Shown: positions 36,902 to 43,149 of the stretch, piece after piece
Position numbering within the stretch: position 1 is the first letter of the stretch
Layout of the letters: each line of letters begins with the position of its first letter
Assembly (NCBI RefSeq): GCF_031822435.1
Contig: NZ_JAVQLW010000001.1
Location: 2,179,501-2,243,500 of the forward strand
Origin: Paracoccus sp. MBLB3053
GTDB lineage: Bacteria; Pseudomonadota; Alphaproteobacteria; Rhodobacterales; Rhodobacteraceae
Length of the DNA stretch: 64,000 nucleotides
Reading direction: 5' to 3'
The notes under the pieces: generated by a model
Told to the model about the DNA's origin: nothing
The model's input: only the letters and a program-made list of their open reading frames with translations
The model's database searches: none
Program-made: the position numbers and the translations under genes

Positions 36902-37588
36902 ATGTTCGCCTATGCAAAAAACATGCAGCTTGCCGTATCCGACAAGCTGCGCAGGGCGGGGTTCGCCGCCGGGGCAGGGGTAGTCCTTGTCCTCGGCGCG
37001 GGCTTTCTTCTTGCCGCACTGTGGACTTTCCTTGCCTATCATCTGGGTTGGGGTTCGATGGTCGCCTCGCTGGTGATCGGAGGTTTCATGGTCGCGATCG
37101 GGTTGATACTTGTGGTCATCGCAGGTCGTGAGCGGCATCCGGTGCCCAGCACGGAAGATTTGCGGATCGAAGTCGAACAGCAGATCAACCTGATGGCCAA
37201 TACGGCAATCACCAAGGCCAGCGATGCTGCCGATGCCGCGATGGACAGGGCTGCAAGCAAAGCGGGCAACCTTCTGGATCTTGCCGAAAACAAGGTGCAT
37301 TCGGTCGCCGACAATCTGACCTACCGCGCGAACCGGTTCGCGGACCAGACCGAAGCGAGGGTCTACGGCTCAGCCCGGCGGATGGGCGAAAACGCGGCTC
37401 GGAGATTCGGTTTCGCTTCGCCCGAGCAAGGCGAAGACCTGACCGAGGAAGACCGTGGCGGCATCAGAGCCACGAATATCGCCCCGGTCCTTGGACTGGT
37501 CGCCGTCGGTCTGACCCTTGCATCACGCTATCGCCGGAGAGAAGAGACCGATCATTCTTGGCCGGATGAACACGACAGCCGTCTCTGA
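36902..37588 (+). CDS. Phage holin-family / YqjE-like membrane protein
   Basis: A 228-aa protein. Two hydrophobic helices near the N-terminus (VVLVLGAGFLLAALWTFLAY and VASLVIGGFMVAIGLILVVI) match the Holin_3_6/YqjE type; a long Ala-rich amphipathic region (about 90-160, SDAADAAMDRAASKAGNLLD) and a third hydrophobic segment near the C-terminus follow. Despite the family name there is no sign of lytic function. Partnership with a YqjD-like gene repeats the E. coli yqjD-yqjE order. Confidence 0.8.
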   Translation: MFAYAKNMQLAVSDKLRRAGFAAGAGVVLVLGAGFLLAALWTFLAYHLGWGSMVASLVIGGFMVAIGLILVVIAGRERHPVPSTEDLRIEVEQQINLMANTAITKASDAADAAMDRAASKAGNLLDLAENKVHSVADNLTYRANRFADQTEARVYGSARRMGENAARRFGFASPEQGEDLTEEDRGGIRATNIAPVLGLVAVGLTLASRYRRREETDHSWPDEHDSRL

Positions 37589-37670: not shown

Positions 37671-38033
37671 TCAGGCGTTTGCTTCGCGGATCTTCTCTGC
37701 GGCGTCCTTGTCATAGGCGACACCGGCCTTGTCCAGCAGCTGATCGAGCTCGCCCGAAAGGGTCATCTCGGTGATGATGTCGCAGCCGCCCACGAACTCA
37801 CCCTTGACGTAGAGCTGGGGGATCGTCGGCCAGTCCGAAAAGTCCTTGATGCCCTGGCGGACATCGGCATCTTTCAGAACGTCGATGTCACGGTAATCGA
37901 CATTCATGTAGTTCAGCACGCCGGCAACGCGGCTCGAGAAACCGCATTGCGGCATTTCCTTGCTGCCCTTCATGAACAACACGACATCGCTGCCGTCGAT
38001 GGTTTCCTGGATCTTCTGACGCACGTCGGTCAT
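37671..38033 (-). CDS. grxD: Monothiol glutaredoxin, Grx4 type
   Basis: A 120-aa glutaredoxin with the CGFS site in [16 protein letters not shown] and the glutathione-binding [23 protein letters not shown] glutaredoxins bind a bridging [2Fe-2S] cluster and pass it on, often in a heterodimer with BolA, whose gene lies 79 bases upstream on the same strand. ATG 38033 gives the family length; an ATG at 38090 has no homology behind it. Functionally it complements the suf operon of this window. Confidence 0.95.
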
Positions 38034-38112
38034 GTCTGGATACTTTCTTCTTTTGCTCGCGTCGGTTCTTTCGGGTTCATGTTCCCCCAAAGCCGACGCC
38101 GAAGACTGGGGG

Positions 38113-38355
38113 TTATTCAGGGACCTTGGTGGTCAGGGCCAGGGCGTGAAGTTCGCCTTGCGGGCCATCCATTTTCCCTTTCAGCGCGGCATAGACCGCG
38201 CGCTGCTGCTGCACGCGATTGAGACCCCGGAAGCTTTCGTCGATTACCTCTGCGGCATAGTGATTCCCATCTCCGGCCAGATCCGTGATCGTGATCTTGG
38301 CCTGGGGGAATGCTGAACGGATCAGCGTCTCGATGTCCTGGGCTTCCATCGCCAT
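38113..38355 (-). CDS. bolA: BolA family protein
   Basis: An 80-aa protein with the BolA fold: ALRSAFP-like start ([19 protein letters not shown]), [20 protein letters not shown] and the conserved invariant His in [11 protein letters not shown], a cluster ligand in BolA-Grx complexes. The size and missing Cys place it in the short, IbaG/BolA2-like group. ATG 38355 follows AAAGGA at a good distance; ATG 38349 is possible. It is the likely partner of the monothiol glutaredoxin just downstream. Confidence 0.92.
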
Positions 38356-38462
38356 GGGGGGTCCTTTCAAATCTTATCCCAGATGTAGGGGAAGGCTCGG
38401 CGGCTCGCAAGGCCACGACCGGTGCCGTCTTCGGAGATGGAGTGAGCCGACGCGAAAATTCG

Positions 38463-38515: not shown

Positions 38516-39748
38516 TCATTCGGGGATGAACAGGTCGCCCGAAAATTTTCCACGAAAGCCGGGGAGTGGACGCCACAGTCGCTCACCGGGAACGAAACGG
38601 CTTTCGCGGGTGTGACTGCCGAAAAGTGTCGAGCGATGCGCGGACATCGTGCGACCTTGTGCATCGGCCATTGCGTAGCAATCCTGCAATTGGTGCGCAA
38701 AGCGCAACCAGCCGGCCGAAGCCGATCTCAGGACCAGCGTGACGCTGTCTCCTTCCCAATCGGGCAAGGCGCTTTGGATGCCGCCCTCTGCCTCGAATCC
38801 GAAATCCAGACAGGTCGCGCTGCCTCCGAATGCGTCGTAGAGATCAGGACGGCTCATCAGCGTCTCGCCTGGTCGTAGCGAGAACCGCACCGTGACATGT
38901 GCGCCCGATTTGGCAACCGAGTAGGTGATGTTCCAGACATTGCCCGCCTCTACTTCGGAAACCGCCCAATCGCAGGTCTCGCCGATCAGGACCTGAGTGC
39001 GGCCGGTGGGATGAATGTTCAGATCGTTGATGAGGAAAACCCGCTGCCACGTGGCGACGATTCCGTCATGTTCCATCGCCAGTCGATATTGAGCGCCGGG
39101 CGTTTCGTAGAGGTCTCCGATCGAGTTCACATCGGCACCGTTGACGACAACGACCAATCTGGGACTGGCCCCGAAAAGGCTTTGCGCCTCGTTCAGGGTT
39201 TCCGTATGGGCCGTTTCGAAATCTGCCCGATAGGAGGAGCCGACCTGATCCTTGGCACTGGTTCCCTGGAAAAGGAACACATAGGGGCAGGAAAGGGCTA
39301 TCCCGAACTCATTCGCCAGACGCGCGCTTTCGCGCATCCAATAGGTCTGGTTTCGTCCCAGCGGACTCGGGTCCGAAGCGATCCATTCGTTGATCTGCCG
39401 ACCGCCAAAGCCGTTATCCCCGATGATGGTTCCTTGCGCAGTCCTTCCTTCGTCGCGCCACCGTGCCGCACGGGCAAACTGAAAGGTGAATGCCGGAGAG
39501 ACGCGTCCCTGGCCCGTGGCGGACATGAAGCCGGTAGCCGTAACCGATTGATCTATCTCTCCAAGTCCTGCGCCGAGCGGGCCGAGGAGGCTGCCCTGAC
39601 GGTCCCGCAAACCGTAGGTGTAGTAAACCTGTTCGCGCGCGGCTGTCTCGATATCTGCGGCCGACGTCTCCTGAAGCGGCCGATTCTCGCTTTGGCCGTA
39701 GACCGGCATGATCTCCAGCGAGGTGACGGAAGGAACGGGGGCCGTCAC
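38516..39748 (-). CDS. SGNH/sialate-O-acetylesterase-like hydrolase
   Basis: A 410-aa protein I only partly recognise. An N-terminal MPVYGQSENRPL has the GQS block of sialate-O-acetylesterase-type (DUF303-like, CE6) enzymes, with Ser20 as predicted nucleophile; GDNGFGGRQINEWIA fits a second block and NDLNIHPTGRTQVLIGE a C-terminal His block, though the Asp usually three residues before the His is shifted by one. The last about 100 residues look like an added beta domain. No signal peptide. GTG 39748 is preferred because it overlaps the upstream stop (GTGA); ATG 39796 is the alternative. A role in deacetylating surface sugars is inference. Confidence 0.55.
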   Translation of the reverse strand: MTAPVPSVTSLEIMPVYGQSENRPLQETSAADIETAAREQVYYTYGLRDRQGSLLGPLGAGLGEIDQSVTATGFMSATGQGRVSPAFTFQFARAARWRDEGRTAQGTIIGDNGFGGRQINEWIASDPSPLGRNQTYWMRESARLANEFGIALSCPYVFLFQGTSAKDQVGSSYRADFETAHTETLNEAQSLFGASPRLVVVVNGADVNSIGDLYETPGAQYRLAMEHDGIVATWQRVFLINDLNIHPTGRTQVLIGETCDWAVSEVEAGNVWNITYSVAKSGAHVTVRFSLRPGETLMSRPDLYDAFGGSATCLDFGFEAEGGIQSALPDWEGDSVTLVLRSASAGWLRFAHQLQDCYAMADAQGRTMSAHRSTLFGSHTRESRFVPGERLWRPLPGFRGKFSGDLFIPE

Positions 39749-40794
39749 GCCCCCCGCCGAAAATCCTCGACAACCTCGCGCATCGTGATCGGCCATGCCT
39801 TTCCTTCAGCGCGACCGACAATCGCAAACCGGTGGATCGTGCCTTTGAGATAGCGTCCCAGTGAAAAGCGGTTGGGTGAAGGGTCCGTCAGCCCGGGATG
39901 GCTTGCTGCGACGAGGTTGCCCGAAGCGTCGAAGCCACTGACGGTGTCGGCCACGTCGTCGATCTCGACCGCGATGATGACGCGCGAGCTGTAGACGGCA
40001 GGGCCGAGGGTCAGGTTGACAGATGTATCATCTGTCCCGGTTCCCTGAAGCGTCCCGCCATTGTTGCGCAGCTTCACATGACCACCGGTGCCGTCCAGGA
40101 TCTGACCGATATTCGAGCCATAGCCGTCCAGGGTGACATCCGCGACGGCAAACAGGCCGTCGGTCGCGGGCTGGTTCGACAGGGTTTGAGATTGCAGATA
40201 GATCCCGTCGGCAAAGACAATCCCCTTGTCGGTCATTCGGGCGGTCGTGCCGGAGCCGGTCTTGGCGAAAGCATAGCCCCCCGTGCCGCGAGTCGTGAGG
40301 CTGGCAAGATCGTCGCTCAGGGCGGCCAGGGAATCGGCTGCATTGAAATAGGCCAGCGTGACAGCATCATAATCGATGACCTTCACCTCGGGCAGAACCA
40401 CCTTCAGGGCGTCGGCTGTGCTCGTGGCCATACCCGCGCTGTTGGTCCAGGTCACGGCAAGCTCGTATTCACCGGGGTCGCTCAGTTCCATCGTCATCGC
40501 GCCCTCGTCCAGCCGGTCGCGGATCGACATGCCGTCCAGGGTGAAATCCCAATGCGCTTGCGGGACAGGGCTGCCATCCGCCTGGCCGATGTTCAGCGAG
40601 ATGCTTTGCCCGATGCTTGCGTCGGTCGGAAGGATGCTGGGCGCCTGGGTGATCACCGGGGCGATGGTTGGCGGTGCGCCCGCAATCAGGCTGCCTGCCG
40701 CATCGTAAAGCTCGGCCGGATCGTCGCCCAGCCAGACCTCGCCCAAATTGTTGAAAAGCGCCAGGGACAGGCCATCATGGATCTGGATCGCCAT
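39745..40794 (-). CDS. Ig-like plus LamG/concanavalin-like domain protein
   Basis: A 349-aa protein of unknown function. After a short N-terminal region (MAIQIHDGLSLALFNNLGEV) comes an Ig-like beta domain at about 55-135, opening with PVITQAPSILP and ending in ELAVTWTNSAGMATS, then a LamG/jelly-roll-like domain at about 150-335 with DGIYLQSQTLSN, VKLRNNGGTLQGTG and FSLGRYLKGTIHRFAIVG. Such folds bind glycans. No signal peptide or anchor. It starts one base after the upstream gene's stop and overlaps the esterase by four bases, so the three genes form one unit. Assignment is by residue pattern only. Confidence 0.6.
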   Translation of the reverse strand: MAIQIHDGLSLALFNNLGEVWLGDDPAELYDAAGSLIAGAPPTIAPVITQAPSILPTDASIGQSISLNIGQADGSPVPQAHWDFTLDGMSIRDRLDEGAMTMELSDPGEYELAVTWTNSAGMATSTADALKVVLPEVKVIDYDAVTLAYFNAADSLAALSDDLASLTTRGTGGYAFAKTGSGTTARMTDKGIVFADGIYLQSQTLSNQPATDGLFAVADVTLDGYGSNIGQILDGTGGHVKLRNNGGTLQGTGTDDTSVNLTLGPAVYSSRVIIAVEIDDVADTVSGFDASGNLVAASHPGLTDPSPNRFSLGRYLKGTIHRFAIVGRAEGKAWPITMREVVEDFRRGA

Positions 40795-40795
40795 G

Positions 40796-41248
40796 TCAGT
40801 CCCCCTTCACCAGGATAATGTCATTATGCCGCTTCTGCGCGGCGGGCAGTTCTTCGTATTCGGCAAAGCGTGACACGACGAGCAACCTTGCCGCGCCGGC
40901 ATCCTTCGCGGCCTTCTGGTTTTGCCCGCTGGTCTTTTCCAGCTCGCCAAGCGAAACGGGCAAAGGCGAGGCGATGAACAGCGACTTCGATTCGAAAACC
41001 TTTACGACGAATTGATTGTAGCCTTCGATCGTCCAACTGGTCGTTGCGGCTTCGCCTTCGCCATTGACGATCAGGTCGACGGACCATTCACCGCTCTGGT
41101 TCGTCGTGGCCTCGACCTTCTGGGTCACAATCCGCAGCCCCCCCTCGAACATGTCTGATCCGTTCAGGGTCGCCACGATCTTGCCGGCTGCGATTGGGGA
41201 AAGCGTGGCGTCCACTAGGATGCCACTGACGGATGCTTTGTTCGGCAT
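40796..41248 (-). CDS. Beta-sandwich protein, tail-fibre or carboxypeptidase-regulatory-like
   Basis: A 150-aa protein. The segments ASVSGILVDATLSPIAAGKI and TTNQSGEWSVDLIVNGEG follow the pattern of carboxypeptidase-regulatory-like/Ig repeats that begin many phage fibre proteins (SGxIVDxxGxPxAxA ... TxxxGxWSxxL). A C-terminal helical part (LEKTSGQNQKAAKDAGAARL) ends in RHNDIILVKGD. No signal peptide. GGAG lies seven bases before the ATG. It is the first gene of the three-gene cassette. I do not recognise a named family. Confidence 0.55.
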   Translation of the reverse strand: MPNKASVSGILVDATLSPIAAGKIVATLNGSDMFEGGLRIVTQKVEATTNQSGEWSVDLIVNGEGEAATTSWTIEGYNQFVVKVFESKSLFIASPLPVSLGELEKTSGQNQKAAKDAGAARLLVVSRFAEYEELPAAQKRHNDIILVKGD

Positions 41249-41374
41249 TTCTTGCTCCTCGGCTCAACTCGGATGTCGCGGCCAGTATGCGAGCGATTTC
41301 ACGCTGTTGCGCAGGGGGGAGGTGCAACGTTCGGGGGCCGGTTCCGCCAGAGCGATGGCCCTGAAACGACAAAA

Positions 41375-41395
41375 CTGCCCGGCTTTGCCGGGCAG
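41375..41395 (-). terminator. Second terminator downstream of guaA
   Basis: CTGCCCGGC (41375-41383), loop TTT, GCCGGGCAG (41387-41395): perfect 9-bp stem followed on the minus strand by TTTT. It is 195 bases past guaA and 126 bases before the cassette, so it insulates the two. Confidence 0.75.
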
Positions 41396-41520
41396 CTTCG
41401 TGTGAACAAGGTAACAAGCTACTGTTGACTGACCAATCAATTAACACGCCGTATCGCGGACCGATAGCTGAACTTTTCGTCAGGTTTCCGGCCTTTGCGG
41501 AGGATCGTGACTTCAGACGA

Positions 41521-41589: not shown

Positions 41590-43149
41590 TTATTCCCACT
41601 CGATCGTGCCCGGCGGCTTCGAGGTGATGTCATAGGTGCAGCGGTTGATGCCCTTGACCTCGTTGATGATCCGCGTCGCCGTCTCGCCCAGGAACTCATG
41701 GGTGAAGGGATAGTAATCCGCCGTCATCCCATCGACCGAAGTGACCGCGCGCAGGGCGCAGGCATAGTCATAGGTCCGCCCATCGCCCATCACGCCCACA
41801 GTGCGCACCGGCAGGATCGCGACGAAGGCCTGCCAGATCTCGTCGTAAAGCCCGTGCTTGCGGATCTGGTCGATATAGACCGCATCTGCCTTGCGCAGGA
41901 TCTCGAGCTTCTCGCGGGTGATCTCGCCGGGGCAGCGGATCGCCAGACCCGGACCGGGGAAGGGGTGGCGGCCGATGAACTTCTCGGGCAGGCCCAGTTC
42001 GCGACCCAGCGCGCGGACCTCGTCCTTGAACAGCTCGCGCAAGGGCTCGACCAGTTTAAGGCCCATTTTCTCGGGCAGACCGCCCACGTTGTGGTGCGAC
42101 TTGATGGTGACCGAGGGCCCGCCGCTGAAGGAAACGCTTTCGATCACGTCAGGATAAAGCGTGCCTTGGGCCAGGAATTCCGCGCCCTCGATCTGATTCG
42201 CGTATTTCTGGAACACGTCGATGAAAAGCTTGCCGATGGTCTTGCGCTTGACCTCCGGGTCCGAGACGCCCTCCAGCTCGCCCAGGAACAGGTCGCTTTC
42301 GTCGGCATGGATCAGCGGGATGTTGTAGGTGTCACGGAACATCGTGACGACCTCGTCGGCCTCATTGAGGCGCAGCAGGCCGTGATCGACGAAGACGCAG
42401 GTCAGCTGGTCGCCGATCGCCTCGTGGATCAGAACCGCCGCGACCGAGCTGTCGACGCCGCCCGACAGGCCGCAGATCACCTGCTTGTCGCCGACCTGCT
42501 CGCGGATCTTGCGGACCGCCTCCTCGCGATAGCTGGCCATGGTCCAGTCGCCGGTGAAGCCCGCCATGCGGACAAAGTTCTCCAGCATGATGCGGCCATT
42601 CGGGGTGTGATGCACCTCGGGGTGGAACTGCACGGCGAAGAACTTGCGCGCCTCGTCGGCGATCATCGCATAGGGCGCGTTGGGCGAGGTGCCGATGACC
42701 TCGAAGCCCGGCGCCAGTTGCGTCACGCGGTCCCCGTGACTCATCCAGACTTCCTCGCGGCCGGTATCGAACAGACCTGCGAAGATGCCGTCGCCCTTGT
42801 GACCCTCGGCGGGCGCGATGAAGGCGCGGCCATATTCGGCGTGATGGCCGGATTCAACCCGTCCGCCAAGCTGCTCCATCATGACCTGCTGGCCATAGCA
42901 GATACCGAAGACCGGAACCTGAAGGTCGAACAGGCTTTGCGGCGCGCGCGGAGATTCTGGCTCGGTCACTGAAGCCGGTCCGCCCGACAGGATCACGGCC
43001 TGAGGGGCGAAGTCGTTGAGAAAGGCGTCATCCACCGTGTTGAAGGGGTGGATTTCGCAATAAACGTTCAACTCGCGCAGGCGCCGCGCAATCAGCTGCG
43101 TGACCTGGGAGCCGAAGTCGATGATGAGGAGGCGCTGATGCTGTGTCAT
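41590..43149 (-). CDS. guaA: GMP synthase (glutamine-hydrolysing)
   Basis: A 519-aa enzyme converting XMP to GMP. The glutamine amidotransferase half has the nucleophile in [16 protein letters not shown] and the His-Glu pair in [10 protein letters not shown]. The ATP-pyrophosphatase half has the P-loop [16 protein letters not shown], and the C-terminal dimerisation domain ends [26 protein letters not shown] (key residues KPPGTIEWE). The start [15 protein letters not shown] is typical. Full length; two hairpins follow. Confidence 0.97.

Follow-up and report, generated by a model that had tools for sequence, protein, structure and literature searches.

The 4.6 Mb genome of Paracoccus sp. MBLB3053 (G000) carries a cassette of three minus-strand genes lying between two strong hairpins, within a 64,000 nt stretch of contig NZ_JAVQLW010000001.1 (positions 2,179,501–2,243,500; hereafter, the window). 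A preliminary description had presented it as a fibre-like unit that includes a predicted sugar esterase and stands between housekeeping genes. Its features, in window coordinates, are:

41370–41400, minus strand: terminator-like hairpin between the GMP synthase gene and the cassette (−24.6 kcal/mol, z −7.4)
41284–41329, minus strand: promoter-like element CGTTGC-N13-GCAAC-N16-CATACT (half-sites 41329–41324 and 41310–41306; −10-like hexamer 41289–41284)
41248–40796, minus strand: gene 1, 150 aa
40794–39745, minus strand: gene 2, 349 aa
39748–38516, minus strand: gene 3, GTG start, 410 aa
38450–38496, minus strand: terminator-like hairpin 3′ of gene 3 (−29.8 kcal/mol, z −5.4)

The open reading frame (ORF) coordinates bear out the tight packing described previously: a single base separates the gene 1 stop codon from the ATG of gene 2, and the TGA of gene 2 overlaps the GTG of gene 3 by four bases. 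An alternative ATG for gene 3 lies upstream, at 39796, and would give a protein of 426 aa; the GTG at 39748, with its four-base overlap with the gene 2 stop, should be the start. Folding likewise upheld both hairpins, though a consensus terminator scan reported neither. The base composition of the cassette is that of its surroundings.

Profile searches and structure prediction gave a mixed return. None of the three proteins fell into a Pfam or PHROG family above threshold, tblastn matched no phage record to genes 1 and 3, and a sequence search of the PDB found no notable relative for these two genes. Gene 1 specifies a predicted beta-sandwich, similar to CarboxypepD_reg at a score under the Pfam cut-off. 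In gene 2, both the Ig/PKD-like domain and the LamG-like lectin domain recognised earlier were supported. Gene 3 encodes a predicted, tailspike-like esterase of the SASA fold with a C-terminal beta domain, and its SASA/SGNH catalytic blocks (GQS ... H) agree with the GQS-type hydrolase first proposed, Q19-S20 being invariant and H246 present in at least 90% of 38 sequences. The closest solved fold of gene 3 is a phage tailspike. The tailspike of cyanopodophage Pan3 (PDB 9vyh) shows 15% identity, the LamG match shares its rank with many unrelated lectin domains, and no paper on it was found in the literature. The carbohydrate and sialate O-acetylesterases XAC1771 (7kmm) and SIAE (8f9o) share the SASA/SGNH hydrolase fold and the Ser and His blocks with gene 3 but score below the tailspike, and are single enzymes, in contrast to the three-gene fibre module described here. 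As had been reported, no signal peptides were seen by eye in the N-termini (MPNKASVSG, MAIQIHDGL and VTAPVPSVT for genes 1, 2 and 3), and the three-gene operon contains no export genes. Both observations speak against a decoy or anti-phage role, in which the host's own glycan receptor would be altered or occupied; a lectin and an esterase could, from general knowledge, strip or block a phage receptor, but this role is very improbable.

Relatives of the module are encoded behind phage tail-tip genes (L138, L140 and L203). In the viral contig IMGVR_UViG_3300020427_000005 (L203), the gene order is tape measure, distal tail, hub, DUF6950 and a 1429-aa tail tip (phrog_5616, central fibre J), followed by a 183-aa protein, a copy of gene 1 with 62% identity to that of the window, and an ORF cut by the contig end. 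The first ~66 residues of this last ORF match a profile of the gene 2 start (24.5 bits, E = 6e-9 for five sequences), and the remainder was not recognised by the gene 1+2 profile. A prophage in genome G229 (L138) has tail-tip genes, a 144-aa protein and a 759-aa protein in which gene-2-like and gene-3-like parts are fused, the latter 44% identical to gene 3. The 144-aa family is related to gene 1: in searches across 38 loci, the gene 1 profile found the L205 copy and the L138 copy found gene 1 of L203 (E = 8e-5 in both cases), while the copies in L138, L206 and L227 escaped the gene 1 profile. Elsewhere, gene-2-like and gene-3-like proteins are adjacent among phage genes named by eye (L139), and a gene-3-like fibre lies behind tail-tip genes (L140). 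One chromosomal gene 1 that lacks the promoter element (L030) can be placed in a phage setting because it is preceded by a relative of the L203 183-aa gene (36%, E = 6e-24). On these matches, genes 1, 2 and 3 are related to an adaptor, a lectin fibre and an esterase spike behind a siphophage tail-tip protein, gene 1 being the probable adaptor. The detached phage receptor-binding module suggested in the preliminary description is supported by such relatives adjoining tail-tip genes and by the tailspike fold of gene 3. A lack of relatives close to phage genes, which that description named as grounds for rejection, was thus not what the searches gave. The phrog_5616/J-type siphophage modules (L138, L203, L205 and L206), which have the homologous adaptor, lectin and, in L138, esterase behind the tail tip, sit in a run of tail genes, whereas the Paracoccus cassette stands alone in the chromosome, in the window between GMP synthase and BolA genes and outside any phage tail cluster.

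Upstream of gene 1, the dyad element GTTGC-N13-GCAAC-N16-NATANT (45 nt) was found in 24 of 32 distinct regions. The eight without an exact copy are L008 and L023 (near matches), L022/L071, L024/L072, L027/L073 (a broken copy), L028, L029 and L030. A genus-wide scan with one mismatch allowed found exact sites in 22 of 125 genomes (hand count). There were 33 of them, of which 32 precede gene 1 and one (G191:C26) precedes genes 2 and 3; the one-mismatch sites numbered 14, with one (G167) at gene 1, and the reversed control pattern gave 29 sites in total. In 31 distinct pattern-selected sequences, a C invariably precedes the element, GTTGC is followed in every case by A or T, and in 28 a G comes directly after the −10-like hexamer. 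In the window's own genome, one-mismatch matches (five, versus three for the reversed control) included none recognised by eye as GTA (gene transfer agent) genes. The centre of the dyad lies ~28 bases before the −10-like hexamer, a position that would suit a class II activator site. The element was not found in the phage stretches examined (L203–L207).

The distribution of the cassette is narrow. Protein searches returned 94 relatives of gene 1 and 67 of gene 3 (own proteins included), and every named organism among them was Paracoccus. Gene 1 occurs in 31 of 125 genus genomes (weakly in one, G244) and in one of 149 family genomes, that of the window. A species-level scan of genome contigs gave 29 loci, all from Paracoccus, including P. 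denitrificans, P. yeei, P. versutus, P. aminovorans and P. halophilus. Literature searches under phrases for orphan or detached tail fibres found no paper, and among the listed papers that combine three of Paracoccus, prophage, tail fiber and acetylesterase, none describes the cassette in its title or abstract opening.

Copies of the cassette occupy unrelated chromosomal sites, as judged from 24 stretches. It lies directly behind guaA in the window and in G206 (L078), and behind a GlxA-like AraC/DJ-1 regulator gene in ten genomes, eight with gene 1 (L061, L066, L067, L068, L070, L075, L076 and L080) and two with genes 2 and 3 (L134 and L136). In six further stretches (L062–L065, L069 and L074) it stands in front of a major facilitator superfamily (MFS) transporter gene, and in three (L073, L077 and L079) behind an SBF transporter gene. 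All six copies at the MFS site have genes 1 and 2 fused into a single ORF; in L062–L065 the esterase is of a different type (24–25% identical to gene 3 of the window where compared, in L064 and L065), and in L069 and L074 no esterase was found. Two genomes have a split cassette (L134/L135 and L136/L137), with a solo gene 1 apart from genes 2 and 3, and in each of them the dyad stands in front of both parts; L136 has one extra base in the spacer leading to the −10-like hexamer, and at the L137 gene 1 (seen as L008) the element is a near match only. RTX (HemolysinCabind) proteins of nearly equal length are encoded beside a cassette or a solo gene 1 (L061:9426–10616 and L137:1693–2886).

Solo and full copies were compared in six genomes. 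Promoter plus gene 1 were 99.0, 98.7 and 94.8% identical in three of these and 75–79% in the other three, while copies at the same site in different genomes diverged by 15–29%. At the MFS site of G221 (L065:10126–10509, minus strand), the last 128 GlxA codons stand before the promoter and are 100% identical to an intact copy elsewhere in the genome; sequence has therefore been copied from one site to another. Gene 1 copies are found at contig ends in three draft genomes. The contigs ending in or near gene 1 are L189, L191–L198 and L200–L202, from P. thiocyanatus, P. denitrificans DSM 413 and Paracoccus sp. MKU1. Such breaks suggest near-identical repeated copies that interrupt the assemblies.

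Five orthologous cassettes contain no stop codons within the genes, and third codon positions differ 2.1–3.5 times as often as second positions in genes 1 and 3, and 1.5–2.1 times as often in gene 2. The genes are therefore not chance ORFs, and this pattern, read from sequence, shows purifying selection. Gene 1 is the most conserved (65–72% identity), followed by gene 3 (61–66%), with gene 2 changing fastest (40–58%). These data also bear on whether the cassette is a prophage relic with no present function, one of the options raised initially. Such a relic would fit the phage ancestry, the patchy distribution and the incomplete or broken copies, such as L073, where gene 1 (region L073:9289–9731) is in two pieces and the promoter is degenerate, whereas genes 2 and 3 are matched along their length. 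Instead of decaying frames beside phage genes, however, the frames are intact and the neighbours general. The codon-position divergence, the lack of stops, insertion sites common to several genomes and a conserved element private to the cassette and missing from the phage copy L203 all argue against this explanation; because the genes are conserved, often multi-copy and mostly equipped with their own promoter element, it is improbable.

The conservation of gene 1 is also relevant to a second explanation, a domesticated soluble lectin-esterase that would be released by lysis, for example with a GTA, and, unattached to any particle, would remodel acetylated sugar on the surface or in the matrix. 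The fold of gene 3 is also near those of carbohydrate and sialate esterases, and passages of PMC13420450 describe the GTA tailspike TspA as loosely attached and active when detached. Against this, gene 1, in which no enzymatic fold was recognised, is the most conserved member among the five orthologues and exists alone behind the same element, so a docking function fits better than a free enzyme, and the soluble role appears unlikely.

The genome of strain MBLB3053 carries GTA_TIM and a GTA holin, that is, a GTA structural cluster (G000:C1:48–63 kb) and lysis genes. Both markers were present in all 22 genomes with the exact element (hand count). Within 13 Paracoccus GTA structural promoters, GCAAC/GTTGC was the only pentamer of 512 to be position-conserved in 13/13 upstream of the −35 region, with boxes near −125 in all 13 and near −102 in 12. 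Among 31 GTA lysis promoters (endolysin and GTA holin), 30 have the box within 130 nt, and in 23 it falls no more than 3 nt from a common position. Five other pentamers match or exceed it in the lysis set (two from a CtrA-like site, two overlapping the box, one a C-run), the CtrA-like TTAAC-N6-TTAAC being exact in 18/31 and present in 27/31 with one mismatch allowed (L142 and L248–L277); GCAAC alone was so conserved in both sets. Control promoters rarely had the box (bolA, 2/30; glutaredoxin, 4/30; mltG, 0/5; nine more genes, 0–2 of 5–10). A GTTGC/GCAAC box is thus common to GTA structural, GTA lysis and cassette promoters, which gives circumstantial support to a GTA link. In Rhodobacter capsulatus, according to passages of PMC6363796, PMC9638019 and PMC13420450, GafA binds the GTA and tspA promoters, is placed on the endolysin promoter in the GafA model, and late loci are accompanied by CtrA half-sites; by analogy, the box that is not CtrA-like is a candidate binding site for GafA. 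A conserved leader that ends in a GC-rich inverted repeat and a T-run separates the GTA promoter from the first GTA gene (13/13 aligned Paracoccus genomes, by eye; L084:14740–14775, minus strand, and L122–L133). This could be a terminator, in which case anti-termination of the kind reported for the Caulobacter GTA (PMC11150451) would be needed.

The phage relatives also raise the possibility that the domesticated fibre module acts in trans on resident or incoming siphophages, as a chromosomal reserve of alternative fibres, rather than on a GTA. In this siphophage group the relatives of the module follow the tail tip, and three loci of the window's own genome (L218, L219 and L220) carry phage tail genes, with tail tips 50–56% identical to that of L203 and other genes behind them, so that the module may act on such phages there. 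In 17 of the 22 exact-element genomes, however, no strong match to this tail tip was found (hand count; E < 1e-60, with at most four candidates scored per genome, so that some may be missed), the promoter half-site matches GTA promoters, and the vertical upkeep of genes that help only a phage is hard to explain. This explanation is accordingly rather unlikely. As a predictor of the cassette, the related tail tip was of little use, with strong matches in 5/22 element-bearing genomes versus ~3.5 expected (20/125; hand counts).

Accessory loci outside the GTA cluster are known from the R. capsulatus GTA (RcGTA), namely the head spike (rcc01079/01080), which the preliminary description cited, the tail fibre (rcc00171) and the tailspike TspA (rcc02623). 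Passages of PMC9638019, PMC7296036 and PMC13420450 present them as small virion-accessory loci for glycan-binding or -degrading proteins. Like them, the cassette lies outside the GTA cluster, and its promoter half-site is common with GTA promoters in Paracoccus. The head fibre Rcc01080 is described as having an N-terminal anchor of alternating Leu-Gly (PMC7296036), a repeat absent from the N-termini of the cassette proteins; TspA is a beta-helix tailspike, whereas gene 3 has an esterase fold; and the GTA cluster of MBLB3053 already has a DUF2793 protein after the megatron gene. The cassette is not classed with these loci.

The immediate neighbours are as follows:

41590–43149, minus strand: GMP synthase (guaA), upstream flank (ORF and Pfam scan)
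38113–38370, minus strand: BolA-like protein, downstream flank (ORF and Pfam scan)
37671–38090: glutaredoxin, after the BolA-like gene (Pfam scan)

Pfam scans of 10 + 2 window proteins and PHROGs scans of 10 assigned the neighbours to housekeeping or general families, as originally described: besides the three above, thiamine-phosphate synthase, SpoU methylase, M32 peptidase, PfkB, LysE, patatin, release factor and DUF883. The gene that follows DUF883 (36902–37585, plus strand) matched Phage_holin_3_6 in Pfam (1.6e-8) and had no PHROG match; the two genes are probably an ordinary membrane-protein pair of the YqjD/YqjE type. No clean empty site was found at the bolA-guaA junction, the upstream neighbours of bolA mostly differing across 30 loci. 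A CTTGC motif is position-conserved near −52 in 30/30 bolA upstream regions (L143–L172) despite the varying neighbour gene.

Sequence comparison and predicted fold together show the cassette to be a domesticated phage receptor-binding module: in Paracoccus chromosomes it is found away from phage genes, selection on it is purifying, and most copies are preceded by a conserved dyad element of their own. The best overall explanation, to which we give roughly even chances, is that the module comes from the tail of a siphophage and is used as a receptor-binding fibre. An activator bound at the dyad (centred near −40 and overlapping the −35 region) would turn the cassette on, and the three proteins, having no evident export signals, would form a fibre, with gene 1 attaching it to a tail, gene 2 recognising a surface glycan and gene 3 deacetylating that glycan. 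Most speculatively, the particle would be the Paracoccus GTA and the activator GafA.

Several observations weigh against this explanation. Gene 1 is missing from three quarters of the genus genomes, its structure model is of low to middling confidence, and its profile recognises one of four 144-aa phage analogues at E 0.01. The phage relatives use a tail tip other than that of the GTA. GTA markers are nearly universal (GTA_TIM in 120 of 125 genomes, the GTA holin in 122) and therefore do not discriminate cassette carriers, GTA presence being uninformative as a predictor. The exact element is missing in 8 of the 32 gene 1 upstream regions, including two standalone cassettes with the other esterase type (L071 and L072), and occurs in full once in the window's own genome. 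Neither the structural nor the lysis promoters of the GTA were found to contain the full 45-nt element, the arrangement of boxes differs among the three promoter types, and the genomes compared are related. CtrA-type TTAA half-sites lie near 2/20 named-genome cassette promoters, and there is one at the promoter in the window. Lastly, as a source of the module, GTA_TIM loci drew a blank, 0/20 sampled regions carrying it (high-scoring matches from a longer list, presumed prophages).

The initial observation is thus confirmed and its interpretation partly supported: the GTA link gains from the shared box and from the markers in 22/22 genomes, and is weakened by the failure to find the full element at GTA promoters, by the GTA_TIM sample and by L071 and L072. 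The promoter-level argument for use on GTA particles is new, and such use is plausible but unproven. A fuller model, which we regard as tentative, is that Paracoccus GTAs bear interchangeable receptor-binding cassettes taken from unrelated siphophages and scattered over several chromosomal sites, with promoter and adaptor gene kept in step by recombination, a shared GTTGC/GCAAC operator that co-induces them with the GTA, and lectin and esterase swaps behind a constant adaptor that re-target the particles. If the cassettes arm GTA particles, they would bear on how these agents choose their recipients, as swappable modules taken from other phages that determine host range, and the box in the promoter would provide a sequence handle for further GTA accessory genes in Paracoccus, where gene 1 carriers include culturable species such as P. 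denitrificans. If they do not, the cassette would still be a clear case of bacteria keeping an isolated phage fibre module under selection.

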